Shown piece after piece: positions 44,526 through 59,268 of a stretch of DNA of 64,000 bases. Each line of letters starts with the position of its first letter. The stretch's first letter is position 1. The stretch lies in the NCBI GenBank assembly GCA_031292575.1, contig JARLGX010000001.1, forward strand, positions 1 through 64,000. Reading direction: 5' to 3'. The position numbers and the translations under genes are program-made. The notes below the pieces were generated by a model. That model did not search any database, was not told the DNA's origin, and was given only the letters and a program-made list of their open reading frames with translations. The stretch comes from Paludibacter sp. (lineage in GTDB: Bacteria > Bacteroidota > Bacteroidia > Bacteroidales > Paludibacteraceae).

Positions 44526-45449
44526 TCAGTACCAACAATTATGACATGAAGGTTCTTTAATCAGATTATAAGTGATTATTAATTCATTTGTCCCCATTGA
44601 ACCATGGCTCAAACTTCCAAAATTATAATCGTAGCTGTATGACAAACGAATAGACTCGCTTATGTTGAACCCTATAATTGCTCCAATTTCACTTTCAGTT
44701 CGGTAAAACAGACCTAAATCGAACAAAATAGATTTATCATTAAACCTTGAAAATTGATCTATCTTAAAATAACTGGTCACATTAAATTCGGCCTGATAGA
44801 TATTGGAGTATTGAATTCCACAAACTCCAAATCCCCAATTTATATTATCATCATTATATTTCCTGTACTTGGCATATAAAAAATTTGTATTCGTTTGATA
44901 TTGATGATTTTTAGCCATAATTGAAAATAAATTTTGGCTGGCAGCTCCAATTTTCAACGACTTGTTAGTTACTTCAAATCCAAAATCAGCATTATAATTA
45001 CTTGTAGACAACAAACCCTGATATGCACTTGGATCATTGTAAGAAGATAAAGTTACCTGCGAAATATCGTAACTTAACTTTTGATAATTAACTCCCAATC
45101 CAAAATGTAATTGCCAGTCTTGTTCTAATTTCAATGCATAGGCATATGTAAAATCTATGTTTGTTAATGATGTATATCCAATTTTATCTTGCAAGGCAAT
45201 TAATCCAAGTTGCATATTTAAATTATCAATATAAGTACTTCCCGAAACAAAATAAGTAACCGGGGCTCCCTTAATTCCACTCCATTGATTGCGAGCCGCC
45301 ATGCTAAAAACGGCCTGATATTTATCGTAAACAGTAGCAGGGTTAATGTATTGAGTATTTCCCCAATAATTATCTAACCGGATATTTGATTGGGCAATAC
45401 TAAAAAAAGTTATTGGAATAAATAAAAACAGGAATATAAACTTTTTCAA
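44526..45449 (-). CDS. PorP/SprF family type IX secretion system membrane protein
   Basis: A 307-residue outer-membrane barrel of the PorP/SprF family. It has a signal peptide (about 1-19, ending SIAQ) and the family opening SNIRLDNYWGNTQYINPATVYDKYQAVFSMAARNQWSGIKGAPVTYFVSGST, then barrel strands to the end. PorP and SprF are needed for T9SS secretion or attachment of particular surface proteins, such as SprB. Its start is 15 bases after the 2209-residue cargo gene, so it should be that protein's partner. The paralogue at 52977-53900 has the same length and is very similar throughout. Both end in PxCHNCWY. Confidence 0.9.
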   Translation of the reverse strand: MKKFIFLFLFIPITFFSIAQSNIRLDNYWGNTQYINPATVYDKYQAVFSMAARNQWSGIKGAPVTYFVSGSTYIDNLNMQLGLIALQDKIGYTSLTNIDFTYAYALKLEQDWQLHFGLGVNYQKLSYDISQVTLSSYNDPSAYQGLLSTSNYNADFGFEVTNKSLKIGAASQNLFSIMAKNHQYQTNTNFLYAKYRKYNDDNINWGFGVCGIQYSNIYQAEFNVTSYFKIDQFSRFNDKSILFDLGLFYRTESEIGAIIGFNISESIRLSYSYDYNFGSLSHGSMGTNELIITYNLIKEPSCHNCWY

Positions 45450-45464
45450 AATATTTTTTGCGTT

Positions 45465-48400
45465 TTATCGTATAACCGTCAAGTAGCCTTCTTTTGTCTT
45501 AATCAGATATCCAGACTTATAAAATAATACATAAAAATATGTATCCATTGAAACAGGGTTATTATTATACTTACAATCCCAACCCTGCGTTCCATTATAC
45601 AATAAGATTCCGTTTCTATTGTATATTTTCACGTGCCAACCTCTCATAAAAACATCATTCACTCCATCACCGTTGGGGGTAATCGTATTTGGCACATCAA
45701 CAACCAAAACCTCTGTAACAACCGTACTGTCACATCCATTTACTGTTTTTAAAACATCAGTATATGTTCCAGATTGATCATATACATTCCCATTAATTGA
45801 GTACTTCTCACCCGAAACAAGTAGCACTTTATTGGTGGTATGATATACAGAATCTACTTTTAAGTTCAATATGGCAGTGCTGTCAATTCCATAGGAGTCT
45901 ACCAAGTGAGATGCGTAAATTCCTGTATTAAAATAATTTACTCCATTAAACCAGTAGTTTTCTCCATCACATATCGAAGCATAAGTATTTGAAGTAGAAG
46001 GCGTTTTTATTTTCAGTATTAAGATGGCAGTACTATCACAGCCCGCTGCATTAACAAAATGGATAGGGCTTGTATAAGTGCCTTCTTCGGAATACGATGT
46101 ATTATTCCAAATGAATGGCAATTTAGCAGAACTTACAACTAAATGAGTAGTGGATGAAGATGATTGATTAACATACAAATTTAAAGTGGCTAAACTATCA
46201 CAACCGACTGCATTGACCAAATGAACAGAATGAATTCCGGCCGTTGTGTAATTTTCTCCGTTAAAAATATAAGTCTCGCCCTGACAAATTGTGGCATTAG
46301 TTGTTGAAACTGAAGACTTTTTCACAGTTAAATGTAATGTGGCTGTGCTATCGCAACCTGCCACATTTGTCAAATGTGCAATATAAGTTCCCGCCGAAGT
46401 ATATTGTACTCCATTCATGGTGTATGAATCGCCCTGACATATTGAAGCATTAATGGTCGATACTGAAGGTAGTTTTAACGATAAATTTAAAATGGCAGTA
46501 CTATCACAACCGTATTCATCTTTTAAATGAGCGGTATATGTTCCGGCAAGATTATACAGTTTTCCGCCAAATTTATAGCTATCTCCAAAGCAAATTGCAG
46601 CATTTGTATTTGAAGTTGTTGGTTGTTTTACCCTCAAGTTTAAGATTGCTGTACTATCACATCCGCCTTTATTTACTAACAACGTTGAATAAGTTCCGCT
46701 TGAATTATACGTAGTGCCATTAAAGGTATATGATTCACTTTGACATATCGTTACATTAGTGGTAGAACTTGTTTTTGGTTTTACTTTTAAAACCAGGGTA
46801 GCAACGCTGTCGCAACCAGCTGCATTAGTCAAATGTTTAATATAAGAACCTGTAGCATTATAGGTAACTCCATTAAAAGTATAAGTATCCCCCTGACATA
46901 TCGAAGCATTTGTTGTTGAACTTGTTGGTTGCACCAAGGTTAAATTTAAAGTAATAACACTATCACATCCAAGTACATTAGTCAAATGAACTTTATAAGT
47001 ACCTCCTGATGTATAAGTTGTTCCATTAAAAACATACGGAGTTCCCTGGCAAATAATTTCATTAACCGAAGAAGCAGTTGGAAGATTGACGGTGAGATGT
47101 AATGTTGCAGTGCTATCACAACCAACTTTATTTGTCAAATGAGCTATGTATGTTCCTGTTGAATTATAAGTTACGCTGTTAAAAGTATATGTATCTCCCT
47201 GGCAAATAGATTTGTTAGTAATGGAAGAACTTGGTAATTTAATAGTTAAGTTTAAAGTGACGGTGCTGTCACAGCCTTGCGAGTTCACAAGATGTGCTTT
47301 ATATATGCCAGCCAAACTATAAGCAGTACCATTAAACATATAAGTGGTTCCCTGACAAATTGATTGATTTATTGTTGAAGATGAAGGCAACTTTACTGTC
47401 AATTTCAAAACAGCAGTACTATCACAGCCTGCAGCATTTGTCAGGTGAGTTGTATATGTCCCTGCTGTTTTACAAATTGTTCCGTTGAACATAATTGAGT
47501 CTCCCTGGCATATTGCCTGGTTTCTGGTAGAGGTAGTTGGTAACTTAATTGACAGATTTAATGTTGCAGTACTATCACACCCAGCCACATTGGTCAGGTG
47601 AGCAACATATGATCCAGCGGAATTATAGGTTGTTCCGTTGAAAACATACGACTCACCCTGACATATTGCGGCGTTTGTTACTGAAGTTGTTGGCAATTTA
47701 ATTGTTAATTTCAGAGTTGCAGTGCTATCACACCCAGCTGCATTGTTAAAATGAAAAGAATACGTTCCGGCCGTATTATAAGTCGTTCCACTAAATGTAT
47801 AGGATTCGCCCGGGCATATCGCAGCATTTGTTATAGATGAGGTTGGCAACTTCATTGTCAATTTCAATATGGAAGTACTGTCACATCCAGTAGAATTAAC
47901 TAAATGAGAAGTGTATGTACCAGGTGTAGAATATGTTATTCCACCTAATGTATAAGTCTCACCCGGACAAATTGATGCATTAGTAGTATGAACCGTAGTA
48001 TTGTTTACAGATAATATTAACACATCGGTACTGTCACATCCAAGTTTACCAATTAAATGAGAAGTGTATGTTCCTGAACTAGTATAAACTGTTCCATTAA
48101 ATGTATAAGAACTACCAATACAAACTGAAGCGTTAGTAACGTGATAGCCTGGTAGAATCACCGTCAAATCCAGCTTTGCAATACTATCACAACCTGTTGC
48201 ATTTGTAAAATGTTTACTGTAAACACCTGTTGAACTATATGTTGTTCCATTAAATACGTAAGATTGACCCTGGCAAATATTAACTTTAAGAGTAGAACTT
48301 GTAGGCGAATTAACAGTTATAACTGCATTGCCGGATTGTGCGTTAGGACAACTCTTTGAATCAACCACACTTATAAGCTTATATGTAAATAGTCCTGCCA

Positions 48401-51400
48401 CATTTGTTGGTGCTGAAACAGTAACGCTATTACCCACAGTGGTTGAAATAACTTTATTAACTCCATTAATCTGATAACTAAATGTGTATGGAGCGGTACC
48501 ACCCAAACCTGTAAAAGTAACATTTGGACTTACATCATTTAAGCAAACTGAGGTTGTACCATTAATTGTAGCTGTAGGCAAAGAAATAACCATAACGGTA
48601 GCAGTGCCGGATTGTAAATTTAAACAACTTGTTGAACTGGCATCTTTTACACTCACCAATGAATATACGAAAGTTCCCGAAATTGTGGTTGGGGCTGCCA
48701 CAGTCGCACTATTGCCAACACTTGTCACAACCGGTTGGTTAATACCATTTATTTTATACGTAAAAGTATACGGAGCGGTACCACCGGAACCAGTGAAAGT
48801 TATTATCGGGTTTGCACCATTCTGGCAAACAGTTGCTGTTCCACTTATTACAGCTGTAGGTAAAGGATTGATAGTAACAGAAACCGAACCTGATTGCGGA
48901 TTAGAGCAAGTCGTTGTACTTGCATCTTTTACACTTACCAGGGAATAAATGAACGTTCCTGCCACATTGGTTGGTACTGTGACTGTTACACTATTTCCAA
49001 CAGTTGTTGTTACGGTTTGATTAACTCCATTTATGAGATAATTAAAGGTATACGGAGCAGTACCCCCCGAACCGGTAAAAGTTATAATTGGACTTACATC
49101 ATTTTGACAGACTGTAGATGTTCCAACAATTGTAGCAGAAGGCAAAGGGTTTATAGTAACTGTGGCATTACCATTTTGCAAATTCGAACAACTAACACTA
49201 CTTGCATCTTTGACACTTACCAACGAGTATATGAAAGTTCCGGCAGTATTTGTTGGAACTGCTATGGTTATGCTATTGCCAGCACTGGTCAGAATAGGCT
49301 GAATGATTCCATTTATTTTATACGTAAAAGTATATGGAGCAGTACTGCCAGCACCTGTAAAAGTAATTACCGGGCTTGGATCATTTTGACAAACCGTTGT
49401 TGTTCCGTTAATTATAGCTGTAGGCAATGGATTGATTATAACTGTTGCAATTCCCGATTGTAAATTCGTGCACCCAGTAGTACTTGCATCTTTTACACTT
49501 ACCAACGAATAGGTAAAAGTACCAGAAACAAAGGTTGGTACAGATACAGTAGCACTATTACCAACACTGGTCACAACCGGTTGGTTAACTCCATTTATTT
49601 TATAAGTAAAAGTATACGGAGCGGTGCCACCTGAGCCTGTTAAAGTTATTATTGGATTTGCATCATTTTGACAAACTGTTGTGTTTCCTGCAATTATAGC
49701 TGTGGGTAATGGATTAACGGTAACAGTAGCAGTACCTGCTTGAAAATTTGAGCAACCTGCACTAACTGCATCTTTTACACTAACCAATGAATAAACAAAA
49801 ATACCCTGAGTAGCTGTTGGTACAGCCACTGTAATACTATTGCCAACACTGGTAACAACCGGTTGTGCCACGCCATTAATCGTATAGGTAAACGTATACG
49901 GGGCAGTACCGCCAGAACCTGTAAAAGTAATATTTGGGCTAACATCATTCTGACAAACAGTAGTAGTTCCGTTAATTGTAGCTAAGGCTAATGGCAGGAC
50001 AGTAACAGTTGCTGTTCCCGATTGTATATTTGAACAAGCTGAACTTCCTGAATTTTTAACACTCACTAAAGAATATGCAAAATTTCCAGCAACATTAGTT
50101 GGAACTGATAGCGTAATGCTATTTCCAGGACTGGTTATAATCGGTTGCAAAACACCGTTAATTGTATAATTAAATGTATAGGGAGCTGTGCCACCGGAGC
50201 CAGTTAAAGTTATCAGAGGGCTAACATCATTTTGGCAAACAGTAGCAGTTCCAGTGATTGTAGCTGTAGGCAAAGGATTTACAGTAACAGTAGCAGTACC
50301 TGATTGTGGATTAGAACAACTTAGGCTGCTTGCATCTTTGACACTTACCAATGAATAAATAAAATTTCCGGAAACATTTGTTGGAGCAGCTACAGTGGCA
50401 ATATTGCCTACACTGGTCACGACCGGCTGCATAATACCGTTAATTTTATATGTAAAAGTATATGGAGCAGTTCCACCGGAACCGGTGAAACTAATATTTT
50501 GGCTTGGATCATTTTGACACACAGTAGTTGTGCCACCAATAGTGGCAGTAGGTAACGGAATTATAACAACTGTGGCTATGCCTGATTGTGGATTTAAACA
50601 ACTTGTAGTACTTGCATCCTGAACACTGACCAGCGAATAAACAAAAGTTCCTGAAACATTTGTTGGCGCTGAAACAGTAACACTATTACCTACAGTAGTT
50701 GTAACAAACTGACTGACTCCATTCACTTTGTAACTAAATGTATAAGGAGCAGTGCCATCTGAACCAGTGAAAGTAATTAAGGGGTTTATACTGTTTTGAC
50801 AGACTGTGGTTGTACCAGAAATTGCGGCTGTAGGCAAAGGATTAACTGTCAGGTTTAAAGTGGATGTACTATCGCAACCAGCTTTATTTGTTGTATGATA
50901 ATCATACAGTCCGGGTGAACTATAAGTGTTTCCATTAAAAACGTAGCTACTGCCTTGGCATATAGAAACATTAGTAATATGGGAGGTTGGTTGATTGACA
51001 ATAATTTTTGAAAAGGCTGTATCCCTACATCCAAACCCTGAATATGGAACCAAATCAACATTAACTGTTGTTGAAGACGTTGGTGCAGGAGTTAATGTTA
51101 CTGTTTTTCCGGTTCCAAGGTTTTGGGAATAATCGTTGTTCCACCAAGTGTAAGTTTGATATCCATCGGGTGCAGTCAACGTTAATGAAGGAGTCCCTTC
51201 ACAGTAAGAATAATTACTTACAAGTGAAGAGCAATTGGAACTCACATCAACGTAAGCATAGCCAAAATGGCCGCCTAACGTGCAATCTTCTGCTGTAAAT
51301 TCTAAAGTTACTGTATGCCCTGCATATCCCGAAAGGTTTATGGTAACAGCTGACCATGGTTTGTATAAAACAGGTTTACCTCCAGCCTGAAGTGCACTTG

Positions 51401-52094
51401 TATAAAATCCCGGTAAACCGGATGTTGAAGTATAATCATAACTTGCGCAAGCTATAACATTTGAACTATTATTTGCATCATATACTTTTGCCTGAAATCG
51501 AGGTTGTTCATCCTGAGGATGATTAGGATCCTGAAATACAACCGCATAATAATAAGTTATTGAATAATTTAATGCAGTAGCTGGGATTACGAAAGTACAA
51601 GCCGCTTTTTCAGCCAGCTTATTAGTTGCTTCACTGCCCAATTGAAGAGTATAATTACCTCCAGTAGGGCAAAGGCGTGGAAAATTTCCATATTTATCAA
51701 GTACTGGTATTGAGGCTGCTGAAATTAACTGGATTCTGTTTGCAATGGGTACAGCTACCGGCGTAGTCGGAGTCCAGGTCACATAATTTGTGGTACCATT
51801 TGTCATCGCAGTACCTGTGTAACATAACCAATTTGTAAAATTTCCAAATTCAAAATCCAAATTATCTACACAACCTGTTGCGTTATAATTTGTTTCAGAT
51901 TTTGCTCTTTGAGGATTACTTGCAGCAACCTGAGTTGTTAAGTAGGTAGAAGTAGTGTTAGGATCAATTACATTATTAGGAATCGGGGCCAGATTAGATA
52001 CCTGTACAAGGGGCTTTTGTTTAAAAGTCCAATATGATTGACTGAAAATACTATTGGTTATCAAAAGATAAATTAATAATCTGGTCAGTTTCAT
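45465..52094 (-). CDS. giant T9SS type B sorting-signal repeat protein (putative adhesin)
   Basis: A 2209-residue secreted protein. Signal peptide about 1-18; a lectin/jelly-roll-like N-terminal domain (about 75-295, NCDNLDFEFGNFTNW-type opening and FQDPNHPQDEQPRFQAKVYDAN); one 51-residue unit; nine ~94-residue modules (about 416-1263) each with VCQN and GTAPYTFxYxINGV; seventeen further 51-residue units (about 1263-2130) with a paired ICQG...GCDS; and a C-terminal gliding-motility-type (type B) sorting domain starting TITPNGDGVNDVF. It should be exported by the T9SS and displayed or released. Its partner PorP/SprF gene is directly downstream. Adhesion is inferred from architecture, not shown. 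Confidence 0.9.
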   Translation of the reverse strand: MKLTRLLIYLLITNSIFSQSYWTFKQKPLVQVSNLAPIPNNVIDPNTTSTYLTTQVAASNPQRAKSETNYNATGCVDNLDFEFGNFTNWLCYTGTAMTNGTTNYVTWTPTTPVAVPIANRIQLISAASIPVLDKYGNFPRLCPTGGNYTLQLGSEATNKLAEKAACTFVIPATALNYSITYYYAVVFQDPNHPQDEQPRFQAKVYDANNSSNVIACASYDYTSTSGLPGFYTSALQAGGKPVLYKPWSAVTINLSGYAGHTVTLEFTAEDCTLGGHFGYAYVDVSSNCSSLVSNYSYCEGTPSLTLTAPDGYQTYTWWNNDYSQNLGTGKTVTLTPAPTSSTTVNVDLVPYSGFGCRDTAFSKIIVNQPTSHITNVSICQGSSYVFNGNTYSSPGLYDYHTTNKAGCDSTSTLNLTVNPLPTAAISGTTTVCQNSINPLITFTGSDGTAPYTFSYKVNGVSQFVTTTVGNSVTVSAPTNVSGTFVYSLVSVQDASTTSCLNPQSGIATVVIIPLPTATIGGTTTVCQNDPSQNISFTGSGGTAPYTFTYKINGIMQPVVTSVGNIATVAAPTNVSGNFIYSLVSVKDASSLSCSNPQSGTATVTVNPLPTATITGTATVCQNDVSPLITLTGSGGTAPYTFNYTINGVLQPIITSPGNSITLSVPTNVAGNFAYSLVSVKNSGSSACSNIQSGTATVTVLPLALATINGTTTVCQNDVSPNITFTGSGGTAPYTFTYTINGVAQPVVTSVGNSITVAVPTATQGIFVYSLVSVKDAVSAGCSNFQAGTATVTVNPLPTAIIAGNTTVCQNDANPIITLTGSGGTAPYTFTYKINGVNQPVVTSVGNSATVSVPTFVSGTFTYSLVSVKDASTTGCTNLQSGIATVIINPLPTAIINGTTTVCQNDPSPVITFTGAGSTAPYTFTYKINGIIQPILTSAGNSITIAVPTNTAGTFIYSLVSVKDASSVSCSNLQNGNATVTINPLPSATIVGTSTVCQNDVSPIITFTGSGGTAPYTFNYLINGVNQTVTTTVGNSVTVTVPTNVAGTFIYSLVSVKDASTTTCSNPQSGSVSVTINPLPTAVISGTATVCQNGANPIITFTGSGGTAPYTFTYKINGINQPVVTSVGNSATVAAPTTISGTFVYSLVSVKDASSTSCLNLQSGTATVMVISLPTATINGTTSVCLNDVSPNVTFTGLGGTAPYTFSYQINGVNKVISTTVGNSVTVSAPTNVAGLFTYKLISVVDSKSCPNAQSGNAVITVNSPTSSTLKVNICQGQSYVFNGTTYSSTGVYSKHFTNATGCDSIAKLDLTVILPGYHVTNASVCIGSSYTFNGTVYTSSGTYTSHLIGKLGCDSTDVLILSVNNTTVHTTNASICPGETYTLGGITYSTPGTYTSHLVNSTGCDSTSILKLTMKLPTSSITNAAICPGESYTFSGTTYNTAGTYSFHFNNAAGCDSTATLKLTIKLPTTSVTNAAICQGESYVFNGTTYNSAGSYVAHLTNVAGCDSTATLNLSIKLPTTSTRNQAICQGDSIMFNGTICKTAGTYTTHLTNAAGCDSTAVLKLTVKLPSSSTINQSICQGTTYMFNGTAYSLAGIYKAHLVNSQGCDSTVTLNLTIKLPSSSITNKSICQGDTYTFNSVTYNSTGTYIAHLTNKVGCDSTATLHLTVNLPTASSVNEIICQGTPYVFNGTTYTSGGTYKVHLTNVLGCDSVITLNLTLVQPTSSTTNASICQGDTYTFNGVTYNATGSYIKHLTNAAGCDSVATLVLKVKPKTSSTTNVTICQSESYTFNGTTYNSSGTYSTLLVNKGGCDSTAILNLRVKQPTTSNTNAAICFGDSYKFGGKLYNLAGTYTAHLKDEYGCDSTAILNLSLKLPSVSTINASICQGDSYTMNGVQYTSAGTYIAHLTNVAGCDSTATLHLTVKKSSVSTTNATICQGETYIFNGENYTTAGIHSVHLVNAVGCDSLATLNLYVNQSSSSTTHLVVSSAKLPFIWNNTSYSEEGTYTSPIHFVNAAGCDSTAILILKIKTPSTSNTYASICDGENYWFNGVNYFNTGIYASHLVDSYGIDSTAILNLKVDSVYHTTNKVLLVSGEKYSINGNVYDQSGTYTDVLKTVNGCDSTVVTEVLVVDVPNTITPNGDGVNDVFMRGWHVKIYNRNGILLYNGTQGWDCKYNNNPVSMDTYFYVLFYKSGYLIKTKEGYLTVIR
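45690..48305 (-). repeat. array of 51-residue Cys-pair units in the 2209-residue protein
   Basis: Seventeen consecutive units of about 153 bases, plus one isolated unit before the nine longer modules. Each has the pattern TNxxICQGxxYxFNGxxY and later GCDS, so one Cys near unit position 9 and one near position 37. The third-last unit and the last are divergent; the last three match the last three of the 1005-residue paralogue. Confidence 0.9.
48305..50845 (-). repeat. nine tandem ~282-base modules in the 2209-residue protein
   Basis: Nine copies of about 94 residues, each beginning TATIxGTTTVCQND and containing SGGTAPYTFTYKINGV, VTSVGNSxTVxVPTNVxGTFxYSLVSVKDAS and SGTATVTV. The pattern resembles an Ig-like or PKD-like beta sandwich. 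Absent from the 1005-residue paralogue. Confidence 0.92.
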
Positions 52095-52133
52095 GAGTTC
52101 TTTATATCCAATTCTAAAATGTTAATTTTATCA

Positions 52134-52141
52134 CAAAGATA
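52134..52141 (-). promoter_or_regulatory. -7 promoter element of the 2209-residue protein gene
   Basis: Minus-strand TATCTTTG, 39 bases upstream of the start. The paralogous gene has the same octamer at 57096-57103. Confidence 0.55.
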
Positions 52142-52889
52142 GTAAGAAAAATTTATATACTGAAAATAATTATTTGTATTAATTCGCTCATTTTAAGCTT
52201 ATTTGTGACACTTTTTTTGCAGGAATTTTTTCTTTTTTTTTGGCGTTAATTTATTTTATATCTTATCTTATTTTATATTGGCAAATGCTAAAACTATCAT
52301 TTCAGTCCATAATATTAATCATGAAAACCTAATTCAAATTTATATTTATAAAATAATGTCTTAAACTATATTATTTCTATAAAATTGATTTATAAGCATT
52401 TGTAGCAATTAGTATTACGTTCGTAATATATATTACAAATTTAATCCTAAATAAACTTAAGACTATTTCAATATAAATTACCATCGATTTGTAAATTTTA
52501 TTACGTATAACGATAATAAACTAATCAGTTCTACCAAGATTATAAACAACATTTTTTAATTTAAATATATATTATTACATATTATTTTACAGTATAGAAA
52601 ACAAACACAAATTAAGTTTATTTATAATTTAAATATATTATTTATATATTATTGTATTATTTGATAGTAATTTTCTCTATTTTAATGTGCATTTTTATTT
52701 GTTATGAGTTTTAAAGTTTAATTCAAAAGTCCTACTAAAAACCTGAATATTTTAATATTCACTATTTTCGTAAAATTATACATATTATAAATATGAGAAA
52801 TATATAAATTTAGATACTTGGTTTTATTCCATATTTTTTAAAATATAGCAGTCATATTTTATGTAGTTTTTTCGTAATTAGTGTAGCGC

Positions 52890-52927
52890 AAAAAACCACC
52901 TCAACCTAATCTTGAAATGGTTTTTTT
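52890..52927 (-). terminator. terminator of the second T9SS cassette
   Basis: AAAAAACCA (52890-52898) and TGGTTTTTT (52918-52926); read on the minus strand the hairpin ends in a T-run, just after the PorP/SprF stop. Confidence 0.7.
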
Positions 52928-52976
52928 AAGACTATTTTCAATTAATTGTAAATAGCTCGAATCTGTTTTATGAGAT

Positions 52977-53900
52977 TTAGTACCAACAATTGTGGCACAC
53001 AGGCTCTTTAATTAGATTATAAGTGATTATTAACTCATTCGTACCAATTGAGCCCCTGTTTAAACTACCCACATTGTAATCATAACTATACGATAAGTGA
53101 ATTGATTCGCTTAAATCAAAACCGAGTATCACTCCTATTTCACTTCCTGTCCGAAAAAATAGTCCCAAATCAAATAAATCGGGTTTTTCTTCTAATCCTG
53201 ATTTTTGATTAACCTTAAAATATCCAGTTAAATTAAATTCTGCCTGATACATATTTGAATATTGAATCCCACATACACCAAATCCGATATTAATGGGATC
53301 GTTTGTATATTGTCGATATCTTGAGTACAAAAAATTGGTATTCGTTTGATATTTATGGTCGGTCGAAAAAATTGAGAATAGATTTTGACTTGAAGCTCCG
53401 ATTTTCCAGTATTTATTCGTCACTTCAACACCAAAGTCTGCATTGTAATTATTCGAAGTTGCTAAGTTCTGATATGCCTGAGGGTCATAATCTGACGCCA
53501 AACTGACCTGAGAAATATCGTAACTAAGACTCTGATAATTTACTCCTAATCCGAGATGTAATTGCCATTCTTGCTGCATTTTTATTGCATAAGCATATGT
53601 AAAATCGAGATTAGTAATTGATGTATAACCAATCTTATCCTGCACAGCAATTAGTCCAAGTTGCGTATTCAAATTATCAATATAAGTGCTTCCGGAAGCA
53701 AAATAGGTCATTGGAGCGCCGTTAATTCCTATCCATTGCTTGCGCGCAGCCATACTAAAAACGGCTACATATTTGTCATAAATTGTTGCAGGATTTATAT
53801 AATGAGCATTTCCCCAATAGTTATTCAAGCGGATATTCGATTGAGCAACAATTAGAAAACTTATTAAATTCAAACCAACTATAAAAATGATTTTTTTCAT
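52977..53900 (-). CDS. PorP/SprF family type IX secretion system membrane protein (paralogue)
   Basis: A 307-residue PorP/SprF protein. It has a signal peptide (about 1-19, ending IVAQ), then SNIRLNNYWGNAHYINPATIYDKYVAVFSMAARKQWIGINGAPMTYFASGSTYIDNLNTQLGLIAVQDKIGYTS, and the barrel ends in IKEPVCHNCWY. Length and most positions match the protein at 44526-45449. The start is 14 bases after the 1005-residue cargo gene, so cargo and partner are translated in tandem. The most variable stretch is in the second half (EEKPDLFDLGLFFRTGSEIG region and before it). Confidence 0.9.
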   Translation of the reverse strand: MKKIIFIVGLNLISFLIVAQSNIRLNNYWGNAHYINPATIYDKYVAVFSMAARKQWIGINGAPMTYFASGSTYIDNLNTQLGLIAVQDKIGYTSITNLDFTYAYAIKMQQEWQLHLGLGVNYQSLSYDISQVSLASDYDPQAYQNLATSNNYNADFGVEVTNKYWKIGASSQNLFSIFSTDHKYQTNTNFLYSRYRQYTNDPINIGFGVCGIQYSNMYQAEFNLTGYFKVNQKSGLEEKPDLFDLGLFFRTGSEIGVILGFDLSESIHLSYSYDYNVGSLNRGSIGTNELIITYNLIKEPVCHNCWY

Positions 53901-53914
53901 CTTAAATCTTTGTT

Positions 53915-56900
53915 TTATCTGATAACCATCAGATATCCTTCTTTTGTCTTTACCTGGGAATCGGAAGTGTAATATAAAACATAAAAATAGGTGTCTTTTG
54001 AAACAGGTCGGTTATTGTACGTACCATCCCAACCATCTTGCCCTTCAAATAAAAGAATCCCATTTCGATTGTATATTTTCACATGCCAGTTCTTCATAAA
54101 CACATCATTATAGCCATCTCCATTGGGCGTAATGGTGTTTGGAATTTTGATTGTGGAAATATCGGTAACCACAGTACTATCACATCCGTAAGTAGTTTTC
54201 AGGATATCGGTATATGTACCGGCTTGAGTATATACGTGCCCGTTAATGGTATAGGATTCTCCCAAAATTAAAAGTATATTATTATACGAATTTACAGTTG
54301 AATTCACTGTTAAGTTTAATGTTGCAATACTATCAATTCCTTGTGAACTTATTAGGTGCGCATCATAAATTCCGGTTTTAGAATAGTTTACTCCGTTAAA
54401 CAAGTAACTATCACCTTCGCAAATCGAGGCAGTTGTAACTGTATTCGGTGTTGTTTTGACAGTGAGGACTAAAGTTGCTGTGCTATCACATCCTAAAGAA
54501 TTGACAAAATGAACCGGACAAGTATGAATTCCCGTTTCATTGAAAGACATTTTATTCCAAACATATGGTAATTGAGTTGAGCTTACAATTAAATTCGTTG
54601 TAGAAGTTGTTGGCTTATTAATCTTAAGTACCAATAATGCTAAGCTATCACATCCAACCGAATTTACTAAATGAGCCAAATATGATCCAGACTTGGTATA
54701 AGTAACATCATTAAATCGATATGATTCACCTTGACAAACCATTGCATTAGAAATTGATAAAGTTGGGAGTTTAACCGTTAAATTTAGAATTTCAAGACTA
54801 TCACTACCTACTGAGTTAAGCAAATGAGCTGAATATGTACCACTTGAGGAGTATGTTTTTCCGTTGAACGAATAAGCTTCATTTTTACATATTGAAGCAT
54901 TGATAACTGAACTCGTTGGCAGTTTCAGCGATAAATTCAACGTGGCTATACTATCACAACCGGCAATATTAAGCAAATGTGCAGTGTATGTTCCGGCTGC
55001 ACTGTAAACTATTCCATTGAACGTATAGGTATAACCCTGACTAATGGAAGCATTGGTAATGGAAGTTGTCGGAAGCTTTACTGACAAGTTCAAGGTGGCA
55101 GTGCTGTCGCAACCGGCAACATTGACCAAATGTACTGTGTATGTTCCGGATGCATTGTAAACTGTTCCATTGAACGTATAGGTATCGCCCTGACAAATTA
55201 ATGCGTTGCTTGTGGATGTCGTTGGAAGCTTTACTAACAAGTTCAAGGTGGCGGTGCTGTCACAACCGGCAACATTGACCAAATGTACTGTGTATGTTCC
55301 GGCTGTATTATAAGTAGTTCCATTGAACGTATAGGTATCGCCCTTGCAAATTGATGCGTTGGTAATAGAATTTGTATTTACAATTGTATTTATAAAAAAA
55401 GAAACAGAATCTGTACAGCCATATTTATTAGAAACAATATATCGTATTGTATCAATTCCACCCGAAACTGCTGTTAATAGTCCGGCATCAGTAATAGTCG
55501 CAACAGATGGATTCGTGCTTCTCCATGTACCTCCTGTAGTTGCTTCAAATAAACTCTCATTTTGTCCTACACAAATATTCTTATTACCTACAATTGGATT
55601 TATAACAGCCAAATTACCTACAGTAACATATCTTATTATACTATCTGTACACCCGTTAATTGATGTGGAAATCAGTCTGACTTTATAAGTTCCCGTCGAA
55701 TTATAGGTTTTTGTATAATTTGTTGAAGTTGAAGTTGTATTATCTCCGAAATCCCAAAAATACGATAATGTCGAATTATCACTTATTGAAGAGTTGTTTG
55801 TAAAACTAATGGGTTTACCTACACAAACTGTTGAATCTGAATTAAAAGCTACAATTGGAGATGGATTAACTTTTAACACAGTGTACGCGGTATCTCTGCA
55901 CCCAAACCCTGGATAAGGAACTAAATCAACGTTTACAACATCATCACTCGTTGGAGGTGGAGTCAACGTTAGAGTCTGTCCGGTTCCAAGCAATTTTGTG
56001 TAAGAACTATTGTACCAATTATATTCTTCGTAGCCCGATGGTGCATTTAAAGTTAATGATGGGGTATTTTTACAATAGGTAGAACTACTTGTTAAAGACA
56101 CACAAGTTGAACTAACATCAATGTATGCGTATCCAAAGTGGGCTCCAAGGGTGCAGTCTTCAGTCGTAAATTCCAAAATTACTGTATGACCTGCATATCC
56201 GGAAAGATTAATTGTAACAGCCGACCAAGGTTTATATAAAACAGAAGGATCAACCCCTGAAACTTTAAAACCGGGCAAGCCCGACGCAGCAGTAAAATCG
56301 TAACTTGCGCAATTGATAATATTGGAACTATTATTAGCGTCATATACTTTAGCCTGAAAACGTGGCTGTTCATCAAAAGGGTGGTTAGGATCTTGAAATA
56401 CGACAGCATAATAATACTCAATTTGAAAATTATTTTGATCAGCAGGTATTGTAAAACTGCAACTTATTTTTTCAGCCTGAGCACCTGTTGCGTTATTACC
56501 TAATTGTACCGAATAATTTCCTCCATTGGGGCATAGACGGGGAAAACCACCATACATATCGTTGACAGGTAATGATGCTGCAGAGATAATTTGATGTCTA
56601 TTTGCAACCGGTGCAACTGGGGTTGTAGGACTCCAGACTGTATAATTAGTTGTTCCTGTTGTTTTGGCAGAGCCTTTATAACATTTCCAGTTAGTAAAGT
56701 TACCCATTTCGAAGTCAATATTATCAATACAACCACTTGTATTGATAGCAGCTCTGGCATTTAATCTTTTAGGTGTGGAAGTATTTAATAAATTAGTTGT
56801 AGATACTGTGTCATCAGGTTCAACTGCTAAATTAGAAATAGGAACTAGGGGCTTCTGCTTAAAAGTCCAATATGACTGACCTAAAATTGTATTAGTAACC

Positions 56901-56932
56901 AGTAGAAATAATATTAATTTAAAAAATTTCAT
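53915..56932 (-). CDS. T9SS type B sorting-signal repeat protein (short paralogue)
   Basis: A 1005-residue secreted protein with the same frame as its larger neighbour: signal peptide about 1-18, the N-terminal domain (about 65-275, SGCIDNIDFEMGNFTNWKCYKG), then different middle modules. These are a PKD-like domain (about 355-440, YFWDFGDNTTS) and an Ig-like (BIG2-type) domain (about 440-515, TWRSTNPSVATITDAGLLTAVSGG). Eight 51-residue Cys-pair units follow (about 517-928), then the type B sorting domain (TITPNGDGYNDVF ... GYLMVIR). In unit three the first Cys is replaced by Ser, in unit four the second is. The PorP/SprF gene is 14 bases downstream. Confidence 0.9.
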   Translation of the reverse strand: MKFFKLILFLLVTNTILGQSYWTFKQKPLVPISNLAVEPDDTVSTTNLLNTSTPKRLNARAAINTSGCIDNIDFEMGNFTNWKCYKGSAKTTGTTNYTVWSPTTPVAPVANRHQIISAASLPVNDMYGGFPRLCPNGGNYSVQLGNNATGAQAEKISCSFTIPADQNNFQIEYYYAVVFQDPNHPFDEQPRFQAKVYDANNSSNIINCASYDFTAASGLPGFKVSGVDPSVLYKPWSAVTINLSGYAGHTVILEFTTEDCTLGAHFGYAYIDVSSTCVSLTSSSTYCKNTPSLTLNAPSGYEEYNWYNSSYTKLLGTGQTLTLTPPPTSDDVVNVDLVPYPGFGCRDTAYTVLKVNPSPIVAFNSDSTVCVGKPISFTNNSSISDNSTLSYFWDFGDNTTSTSTNYTKTYNSTGTYKVRLISTSINGCTDSIIRYVTVGNLAVINPIVGNKNICVGQNESLFEATTGGTWRSTNPSVATITDAGLLTAVSGGIDTIRYIVSNKYGCTDSVSFFINTIVNTNSITNASICKGDTYTFNGTTYNTAGTYTVHLVNVAGCDSTATLNLLVKLPTTSTSNALICQGDTYTFNGTVYNASGTYTVHLVNVAGCDSTATLNLSVKLPTTSITNASISQGYTYTFNGIVYSAAGTYTAHLLNIAGCDSIATLNLSLKLPTSSVINASICKNEAYSFNGKTYSSSGTYSAHLLNSVGSDSLEILNLTVKLPTLSISNAMVCQGESYRFNDVTYTKSGSYLAHLVNSVGCDSLALLVLKINKPTTSTTNLIVSSTQLPYVWNKMSFNETGIHTCPVHFVNSLGCDSTATLVLTVKTTPNTVTTASICEGDSYLFNGVNYSKTGIYDAHLISSQGIDSIATLNLTVNSTVNSYNNILLILGESYTINGHVYTQAGTYTDILKTTYGCDSTVVTDISTIKIPNTITPNGDGYNDVFMKNWHVKIYNRNGILLFEGQDGWDGTYNNRPVSKDTYFYVLYYTSDSQVKTKEGYLMVIR
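54148..55381 (-). repeat. eight 51-residue units in the 1005-residue protein
   Basis: Units of about 153 bases. The first two, at about 55075-55380 in window coordinates, share long stretches of identical DNA, which points to a recent duplication or gene conversion. Confidence 0.88.
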
Positions 56933-57588: not shown

Positions 57589-59268
57589 TTATTCTATATT
57601 TATGTTTGAAGCACCACCGTCAGTCTTCTTAATTACCTTGGGATTCCCTTTGCAATTAATTTCACTAGCACCATAAGCTTCAGCAATAATCGTTTTAGTT
57701 GCAAATAGTTTTGCATGACTGGCACCAGCAACATAAACTTCGGCATTTTCGGCAATAAGGTTAGTTGCGTCTATATCACTTGCACCAAGTCCGTTTACCT
57801 TAATTACTTTACACGCTCCAGCCAAGTCAACTTTAGATGCTCCTTTAACATCAAGGCTTAATAGATTTGACACTTTCATATTCAGTTTGGCCTCGCTTGC
57901 ACCCAATAACTGAAGTGAAAAATCGTGGGCAACCAACAGGGAGTCTGTTTCAATTTTACATGCTCCTTTTGCCTCTATGCTTGTTAGAGAGTCTGCCGAA
58001 ATAGTGACCTTCAATGTTCTGTTCAGCAAAAATTCATCGGAATAAATATGAAGAACGCCATTTTCAACCTTTGTAACTACCTTAGACATAAAATCATCCG
58101 GGCTTGATACAGTGATTTTTTGAACTGAATCTTTTACAATATTCAACTCGAAATTTCCAGAAATATCAATAGCGTGAAATGGTTCGCATTTTCTGACCTC
58201 ATCATTAAAAGGTTTATTATCATCACTCCAATTTATCGAAAAAGGATGTCCGTTATTGTGAAAATGAATTAAGGAATTGGCTCCAACGCTATAAAACATA
58301 AATAATCCGGCAAGCCATAAAATTAGCACCACCCATGATGCAGTTCTTGGCGTATTGTGTCTTCCTGAAATAATTCTGACAGCCCAATATATGAGTAAAA
58401 AAATCGGACAACCAACAACTAAAATCAGTGAAATTATTAGCATGACCATTTTTTCGGGAGTTATAACCGACCAATTTGTGAATAAATCGGGAGCAAAACC
58501 ATTAATTACTGTTGGCTCAAAAATCAAGAAGAATAGCACCAAAATAAGGACACCTATTATTACAAAACCCACAATGCCAAGTACAGCACCTATAAAACCA
58601 AAGAAAATTTTTGAAAACCAAATCAAAACTTCGCCTAAACGTTTCCCAACTGAAGAGGCAGATTGTTTGAATTTCTCACTCTCCATATAGTTTTTAACAT
58701 TATTTACTTCAGTCTTAATGCTTTCAACTGTTACGTCTTCACCCTGCATTTCAAGGCGTTGCGAAGCTGTAAGTGCTGCCGGAGCAACGAACCAAACTAC
58801 GATATAAATGGGGATAATAAATCCAACTCCAAGGAAAACCAATAAAATCAGAATAATTCTGATCCAGGTAACGTCAATATTAAAATATGCAGCTAATCCT
58901 CCTGCAATACCGCCTAAAATGGCATTTTCCGGATCGCGATAAAAGCGACGCGATTTTTGTTGCTTTTTATCCTGTTTTGGTGGTGTTTTCGTATCAGTTT
59001 CGTCTTCGTCAGCATATTGGCTTGGTTTACCCATTATTTCAATAATTTCCTGAACGTCAGCAAGATTAACTACATTTTTATTTTTTTGAAGCTTTTCGTT
59101 GAAAAGTTCAGCTATTCTGGCTTCAATATCGTTCATTATTTCCTTACGCTCATCGTCCAATTGAAAATGATCTGCAATTTCGGAAAGATACGTGTGGAGC
59201 ATTTCATAAGCATCGTCGTCGATATGAAAAACGATGTTATTCAAATTTACCGTTAATGTCTTTTTCAT
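57589..59268 (-). CDS. PspC domain protein with C-terminal GIN (DUF2807) domain
   Basis: A 559-residue membrane protein. N-terminal soluble region (1-100) with HIDDDAYEMLHTYLSEIADHF and EIMNDIEARIAELFNEKL; a PspC domain (about 108-170, RRFYRDPENAILGGIAGGLAAYFNIDVTWIRIILILLVFLGVGFIIPIYIVVWFVAP); three or more further TM helices (about 215-345); and a C-terminal GIN beta-helix domain (about 365-559) with recurring GAS steps (LLGASEAKL, VKGASKVDL, GLGASDIDAT, VAGASHAKL, AYGASEINC, GGASNINIE). PspC proteins sense or respond to envelope stress. It follows a PadR gene after 23 bases, which probably controls it. Confidence 0.9.
   Translation of the reverse strand: MKKTLTVNLNNIVFHIDDDAYEMLHTYLSEIADHFQLDDERKEIMNDIEARIAELFNEKLQKNKNVVNLADVQEIIEIMGKPSQYADEDETDTKTPPKQDKKQQKSRRFYRDPENAILGGIAGGLAAYFNIDVTWIRIILILLVFLGVGFIIPIYIVVWFVAPAALTASQRLEMQGEDVTVESIKTEVNNVKNYMESEKFKQSASSVGKRLGEVLIWFSKIFFGFIGAVLGIVGFVIIGVLILVLFFLIFEPTVINGFAPDLFTNWSVITPEKMVMLIISLILVVGCPIFLLIYWAVRIISGRHNTPRTASWVVLILWLAGLFMFYSVGANSLIHFHNNGHPFSINWSDDNKPFNDEVRKCEPFHAIDISGNFELNIVKDSVQKITVSSPDDFMSKVVTKVENGVLHIYSDEFLLNRTLKVTISADSLTSIEAKGACKIETDSLLVAHDFSLQLLGASEAKLNMKVSNLLSLDVKGASKVDLAGACKVIKVNGLGASDIDATNLIAENAEVYVAGASHAKLFATKTIIAEAYGASEINCKGNPKVIKKTDGGASNINIE

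Follow-up and report, generated by a model that had tools for sequence, protein, structure and literature searches.

Two tandem type B cargo–PorP/SprF cassettes in Paludibacter share a variant twin-cysteine shuttle tail

In Flavobacterium johnsoniae, the C-terminal domains (CTDs) of type B cargo proteins of the type IX secretion system (T9SS) depend on PorP/SprF-family shuttles, with which they form cognate pairs (PMC12618676). For the SprB–SprF system of F. johnsoniae, PMC12635249 reports that cysteines in the C-terminal tail of SprF bond to Cys343 of GldK and are required for sustained adhesin movement, not for export. Static anchoring is represented by Fjoh_3952-3951-3950 of F. johnsoniae and PG1035-PorP-PorE of P. 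gingivalis, in which a type B cargo is likewise combined with a PorP-like shuttle. Gorasia et al. (PMC9143113) proposed that mobile type B proteins have no PorE partner, nonmobile ones being tied to PorE, and Paillat et al. make the same PorE-based argument for Fjoh_3952. Here we analysed the first 64,000 nucleotides of contig JARLGX010000001.1 of a Paludibacter sp. (the window; its source genome is termed G000, other G numbers denote genomes of relatives and L numbers denote loci), in which two adjacent minus-strand cassettes, A and B, each encode a type B cargo followed by a PorP/SprF-family shuttle. The tandem duplication is genuine and old and concerns a unit of a familiar type; what is new is the variant twin-cysteine tail of its shuttles. 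The features are as follows.

44526..45449, minus strand: PorP_A, PorP/SprF-family shuttle of 307 residues, C-terminal tail CHNCWY (TIGR03519 155.5 bits, PF11751, alignment A1)
44529..44546, minus strand: CHNCWY tail codons of PorP_A (alignment of 10 shuttles)
45465..52094, minus strand: cargo_A, 2209 residues, with signal peptide (by eye), N-terminal domain, one 51-residue repeat, nine 94-residue modules, seventeen 51-residue repeats and type B CTD (TIGR04131, CHU_C, repeat anatomy)
52095..52976, no strand: 882-bp region upstream of cassette A, matching the sequence upstream of cassette B best over 71 bp (75%)
52977..53900, minus strand: PorP_B, PorP/SprF-family shuttle of 307 residues, C-terminal tail CHNCWY (TIGR03519 143.8 bits)
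52980..52997, minus strand: CHNCWY tail codons of PorP_B (alignment of 10 shuttles)
53915..56932, minus strand: cargo_B, 1005 residues, with signal peptide (by eye), N-terminal domain, PKD, weak Big_2, eight 51-residue repeats and type B CTD (profile matches, repeat anatomy)

Coordinates, strands and lengths of the four genes agree with an earlier note made from the sequence alone, and what that note observed is confirmed, while its interpretation is partly supported. The two pairs are as it described: both shuttles exceed the TIGR03519 cut-off (90.55 bits) over residues 1–295, and both cargos exceed those of TIGR04131 (36.9 bits for cargo_A and 45.8 for cargo_B; cut-off 35) and CHU_C (40.1 and 50.4; cut-off 27), with 15 bases between cargo_A and PorP_A, whose start codon is TTG, and 14 between cargo_B and PorP_B. 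The resemblance it saw between the pairs in signal peptide, N-terminal domain, sorting domain and shuttle length also holds, with 66.8% identity (237/355) between the cargo N-terminal domains, 72% between the last 100 residues (CTD) and 73% between the shuttles.

Both shuttles end in CHNCWY, beyond the last predicted strand. In alignment A1, which comprises 10 shuttles paired with cargos bearing a stalk of 51-residue repeats, PorP_A and PorP_B included, C302, N304, C305 and W306 (PorP_B numbering) are invariant (CxNCW in 10/10), and four further clade members end in CHNCWY or CHNCWW. The invariant cysteines of a second, 17-row alignment (A2) were excluded as evidence, its rows having been selected mostly from cysteine-tailed shuttles. 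Thus twin cysteines are present but are separated by two residues and followed by Trp, unlike the Cys-Xaa-Cys of SprF. To survey such tails, we collected 195 loci (75 chosen for likeness to PorP_A/PorP_B, 82 best-scoring of the class listing and 38 from the phylum listing); their 203 shuttle genes were reduced to 193 by removing identical sequences, to 189 by keeping those with at least 800 bases downstream, and to 187 by leaving out frames of at least 620 residues, PorP_A being absent from this final set. Of these 187 shuttles, 44 contain CxC or CxxC within their last 20 residues, versus none of 2593 other 20-residue blocks. On the side of the target, the GldK of G000 (544.6 bits; cut-off 350) carries Cys335, which aligns with PorK Cys356 (position hand-counted on the alignment with PDB 9ots/9mzu), given in PMC12635249 as the residue reacting with PorG; the column is Cys in all 30 GldKs retrieved. 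The PorG candidate of G000 (PF19573) has CNC in its tail.

Four shuttles in G000 have twin cysteines, namely A, B and one each on contigs 1 and 29, and contig 20 has one shuttle upstream of gldK. In contrast to SprB, neither cargo_A nor cargo_B matches the SprB repeat (PF13573) at E up to 1. A related cassette on contig 1 (L057:4414-10862) does carry it: its 1843-residue cargo combines five PF13573 stretches with PKD domains and its shuttle ends in CQNCWY, so this cassette is perhaps the SprB–SprF counterpart. A type B sorting domain on contig 5 (78500-78703), where no PorP-family match is listed, possibly belongs to an orphan cargo.

The predicted structure of PorP_B is a barrel with a mean predicted local distance difference test score (pLDDT) of 75, and residues 301–307 fall below 50. 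Foldseek returned OmpG as the top match to this model, along with FadL and chain F of the T9SS entries 8gl6 and 6h3i (template modelling scores of 0.62 and 0.57 when normalized by query length). In these translocon entries, chain F is PorV. By sequence, no credible relative of the shuttle was found in the PDB (one match at E 0.63, and none in a second search). The cargo N-terminal domain was modelled at a pLDDT of 54, and no Pfam match spans it.

The cassettes also differ from the two static systems in having neither a PorE-like gene in the operon nor a PR[YF]F-like shuttle tail: PorP_A is followed by gcvP on the other strand, and PorP_B by cargo_A. Across the survey, 0/58 shuttles with at least two cysteines in the last 20 residues have a PorE/OmpA partner, either encoded within 600 bases or fused to the shuttle, versus 45/129 others (Fisher 4e-9), both limits having been chosen after inspection of the data. 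With a type B cargo upstream, the counts are 0/38 for twin-cysteine shuttles and 41/92 for the others. PR[YF] followed by F, L, Y or I forms the C-terminus of 35/40 PorE-linked versus 2/142 unlinked shuttles. The cysteines are closely spaced in 44 of the 58 two-cysteine rows, and 12 of the rows have a gldK-sized gene downstream, judged by size only. Three PorE-type neighbours scanned with Pfam all showed OmpA and PD40, and two showed CarboxypepD_reg over its cut-off. We found no paper in the open-access literature that links the shuttle tail to a PorE neighbour.

Other arrangements were seen alongside. On G000 contig 40 (L060:4264-7964), a PorP ending in SPRYY with a type B cargo upstream is followed after 38 bases by an 899-residue PorE-like gene (OmpA, PD40, CarboxypepD_reg); judged by its gene content, this is a cassette of the static type in the same genome as A and B. 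In L215, L217, L218, L219 and L280 (Crocinitomicaceae, Flavobacteriales and one other genome), a PorP barrel and an OmpA domain form one protein of 528–549 residues without tail cysteines. Adjoining PorP genes with no cargo between them occur at L260:3509-5543, where a 497-residue gene comes next, and at L047:809-3621.

Given the variant twin-cysteine tail, track movement is our leading reading: we see roughly even chances that A and B make two adhesin fibres carried on a moving GldK-containing track or ring. Each cassette would yield a shuttle and a long adhesin that has a stalk of repeats and a type B sorting domain. The adhesin would exit through the T9SS translocon across the outer membrane, and the shuttle would collect it by its CTD. 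The loaded shuttle would then bond, via the cysteine pair of its periplasmic tail, to the conserved GldK cysteine, so that the fibre would ride the GldK-containing track or ring rather than being pinned to peptidoglycan via PorE, and the main differences between the A and B copies would be the length of the fibre and the domains in its middle. More tentatively, and rather less likely than not, the last residues of a shuttle may serve as an address label for type B adhesins: a fibre whose shuttle has a twin-cysteine tail would go to the moving GldK track, and one whose shuttle ends in a PR[YF]F-like motif would go to PorE and the cell wall. Paludibacter would then run several track-type cassettes, one of them tandemly duplicated.

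GldJ in the genus bears on this reading in both directions. Among 35 relatives within the genus, PorP_B-like shuttles (best E <1e-20, a limit chosen after the scores were known) occur in 23/28 genomes with the longer GldJ-like protein versus 0/7 with a shorter one or none (Fisher 1.2e-4). The 28 include G015 and G035, in which the gene is broken by contig ends, and the seven are six genomes with the shorter form plus G010 (75% complete) with none. The type strain of Paludibacter has a GldJ-like gene and three shuttles with twin cysteines. In the G000 assembly (99.6% complete), no GldJ-like gene was found. The neighbouring asnS, which adjoins the GldJ-like gene in G016, is missing too, and both are probably absent through one assembly gap; the idea that GldJ loss in G000 marks a GldJ-less ring was dropped for this reason.

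Several observations weigh against track movement, the missing GldJ-like gene of G000 among them. The GldJ-like proteins of the genus match GldJ best yet fall below the GldJ and GldJ_short cut-offs (for G016, 360 vs 458 bits and 297 vs 383 bits with the two GldJ models; 0/18 genomes over the GldJ_short cut-off), which lowers our confidence. The count of GldJ-like proteins against shuttles disregards tails, and its seven genomes may be one lineage. The spacing is CxxC where SprF has CxC. The surveyed shuttles are kin and were sampled non-randomly: only 1/47 shuttles within Paludibacter loci is PorE-linked, and outside these loci the association is 0/7 vs 44/133 for close-spaced cysteines (p 0.098), all seven coming from two genomes of one genus. 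It is 0/21 vs 44/119 (p 2e-4) for any two tail cysteines, a class that mixes in core shuttles. A test of tail cysteines against PorE by independent pairs had five supported pairs and no power. Five shuttles of a related Paludibacter cassette (L039, L040, L041, L072, L075) have neither tail cysteines nor a PorE neighbour. Finally, P. propionicigenes WB4, the type strain, is described as nonmotile (PMC3072083). Compared with SprB–SprF, the GldK disulfide and movement are here predictions.

Much of this would suit static anchoring, which we regard as the less probable but strongest competitor. The shuttles would hold the adhesins in place via a PorE encoded elsewhere, such as that of the contig 40 cassette, or via none, and the tail cysteines would serve as an intramolecular disulfide or folding aid. 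The PorE-like gene in another G000 cassette, the nonmotile WB4, the shuttles of the genus lacking both tail cysteines and a PorE neighbour, and the sub-threshold GldJ-like proteins are all in its favour. However, A and B lack the PR[YF] tail with F, L, Y or I that marks PorE-linked shuttles, the cysteines of their tails do not vary across the clade, and GldK carries the cysteine that they would target.

As to how the tandem arose, the data support well that the four genes are two paralogous cassettes produced by tandem duplication at a conserved locus. The close relatives belong to Paludibacter, Paludibacteraceae and others of Bacteroidales or Bacteroidota. The four genes sit between a PspC-domain gene and gcvP. 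The same interval of G016, a genome of the genus taken to be P. propionicigenes WB4, contains exactly one cassette, and a cassette adjoins gcvP in G007, G005 and G033 as well. The G016 cassette (G016:C1:100995-107204) shares the locus, N-terminal domain, 51-residue stalk, CTD and a shuttle 77% identical to PorP_B with the tail CHNCWW, but it is a single copy, with a cargo of 1755 residues, one 94-residue module and 24 stalk repeats (hidden Markov model count). Besides G000, cargos with 51-residue stalks accompany this shuttle clade in eight relatives (G001, G005, G007, G009, G016, G018, G031, G033). Tandem and single cassettes can be told apart in few genomes; the other loci stop inside the cassette or at a contig end. 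Tandems were found in two genomes, G000 and that of L189, where a tandem of its own occupies the corresponding position. The PspC-domain gene (window 57589-59268) also carries a DUF2807 head GIN domain. At L190:3879-9086, the cassette is separated from gcvP by two further predicted proteins (442 and 1076 residues), which stand where the second cassette is found in G000. At L068:11098-17948 (G033), a stretch of N lies within the cargo, which is read from two overlapping frames around it, and its state is uncertain.

Trees were compared by the approximately unbiased (AU) test, and support is given as paired values. PorP_A and PorP_B are sisters at 95/93 (95/89 with more taxa), although grouping B with G016 is not rejected (AU p 0.145), only A with G016 being rejected (p 0.028). 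The cargo tree (260 residues) prefers B with G016 (90/81), with AU p 0.20 for A and B as sisters and 0.41 with more taxa. Site patterns of the PorPs are evenly divided, those of the N-terminal domain favour B with G016, and third codon positions are ~50% identical in all three pairs. Together, these results suggest that the duplication took place at roughly the time of the split from G016. The proposal in the earlier note that the unit was copied whole is mostly borne out by synteny and the sister PorPs, while sisterhood is not shown for the cargos. Between PorP_A and PorP_B, dN is 0.16 and pS 0.67, with synonymous sites close to saturation, which points to an old duplication, and both shuttles look to be kept by purifying selection.

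The L189 tandem behaves differently in its two halves. Its PorPs pair weakly (81/59), and sister status of its cargo ends is rejected for the last 260 residues (p 4.4e-6) and for the last 152 residues (p 0.012), though not for the last 100 (p 0.16). Co-evolution of the partners, which the note had proposed to check, is therefore not strict, and stalk ends seem to have been exchanged independently of shuttles. Orthology of the G000 and L189 tandems was considered and set aside: in the PorP tree, pairing of B with L189_1 is rejected (p 0.0044) and that of A with L189_2 nearly so (p 0.051), making a shared ancestral tandem without gene conversion unlikely.

The cargo middles differ as the earlier note described, nine modules standing in cargo_A against PKD and Ig-like domains in cargo_B, but it had missed that both contain a stalk of 51-residue repeats (18 copies in cargo_A, 8 in cargo_B). 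One 54-residue spacing, a change of three residues, lies at an equal position from the C-terminus in both, and the last three repeats correspond by position (57–64% identity, versus means of 32–44% to other B repeats), which indicates that this C-terminal block descended as a whole and that the middles are not entirely different. No positional match of this kind is seen among the interior repeats, whose identities are 56 and 59% within the cargos and 57% between them. The nine modules of cargo_A are exactly 94 residues each, with a mean pairwise identity of 69%. In cargo_B, PKD_4 is clear (65.6; cut-off 27), while the Ig-like Big_2 stays below its threshold (18.2 vs 22.8). In G016, G007 and G009, a single 94-residue module separates the head from the stalk, so the one-module plan is probably ancestral; cargo_A probably amplified one to nine and cargo_B has a PKD and Ig-like stretch in its place. 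This agrees with the independent remodelling that the note proposed.

Such repeats could also make the tandem a reservoir of variation, in which recombination between adjoining cassettes would give fibres with new lengths and tips, the extra shuttle being retained for dosage. We consider this improbable as the main explanation, though it is compatible with movement on a track. Cargos of relatives have between 5 and at least 50 stalk repeats, heads differ in G007, G009 and G033 at the same kind of cassette, interior repeats are as alike between cargos as within them, and tandems occur in two genomes. Against this stand the apparent purifying selection on both PorPs and the retention of position-specific terminal repeats in the stalks.

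Least likely is the view of the earlier note that cargo–shuttle interfaces diverged after duplication into matched partners of two distinct structures: each cargo has retained its own adjacent shuttle, and cognate pairing is reported for F. johnsoniae, but the L189 trees of cargo ends and shuttles disagree, and the A and B CTDs, at 72% identity, lie above a pair cross-accepted at 68% in F. johnsoniae, where pairs at 43% and 26% were not accepted (PMC12618676). By this comparison, the shuttles are more likely shared than private, and either shuttle can probably serve either cargo. Hence, private specificity is doubtful, and the locus is not the clean natural test of specificity that had been suggested.

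The tandem itself offers a way to ask to what extent paralogous shuttles share cargo. Moving and fixed type B adhesins have so far been distinguished for few F. johnsoniae proteins; if the tail predicts the destination, the distinction would be readable from sequence across Bacteroidota. Paludibacter would be a sharp test case, with a strictly anaerobic type strain recorded as nonmotile that yet has a GldJ-like gene and twin-cysteine shuttles. If the tail does act as an address label, Paludibacter would glide under some condition or move its adhesins for another purpose.

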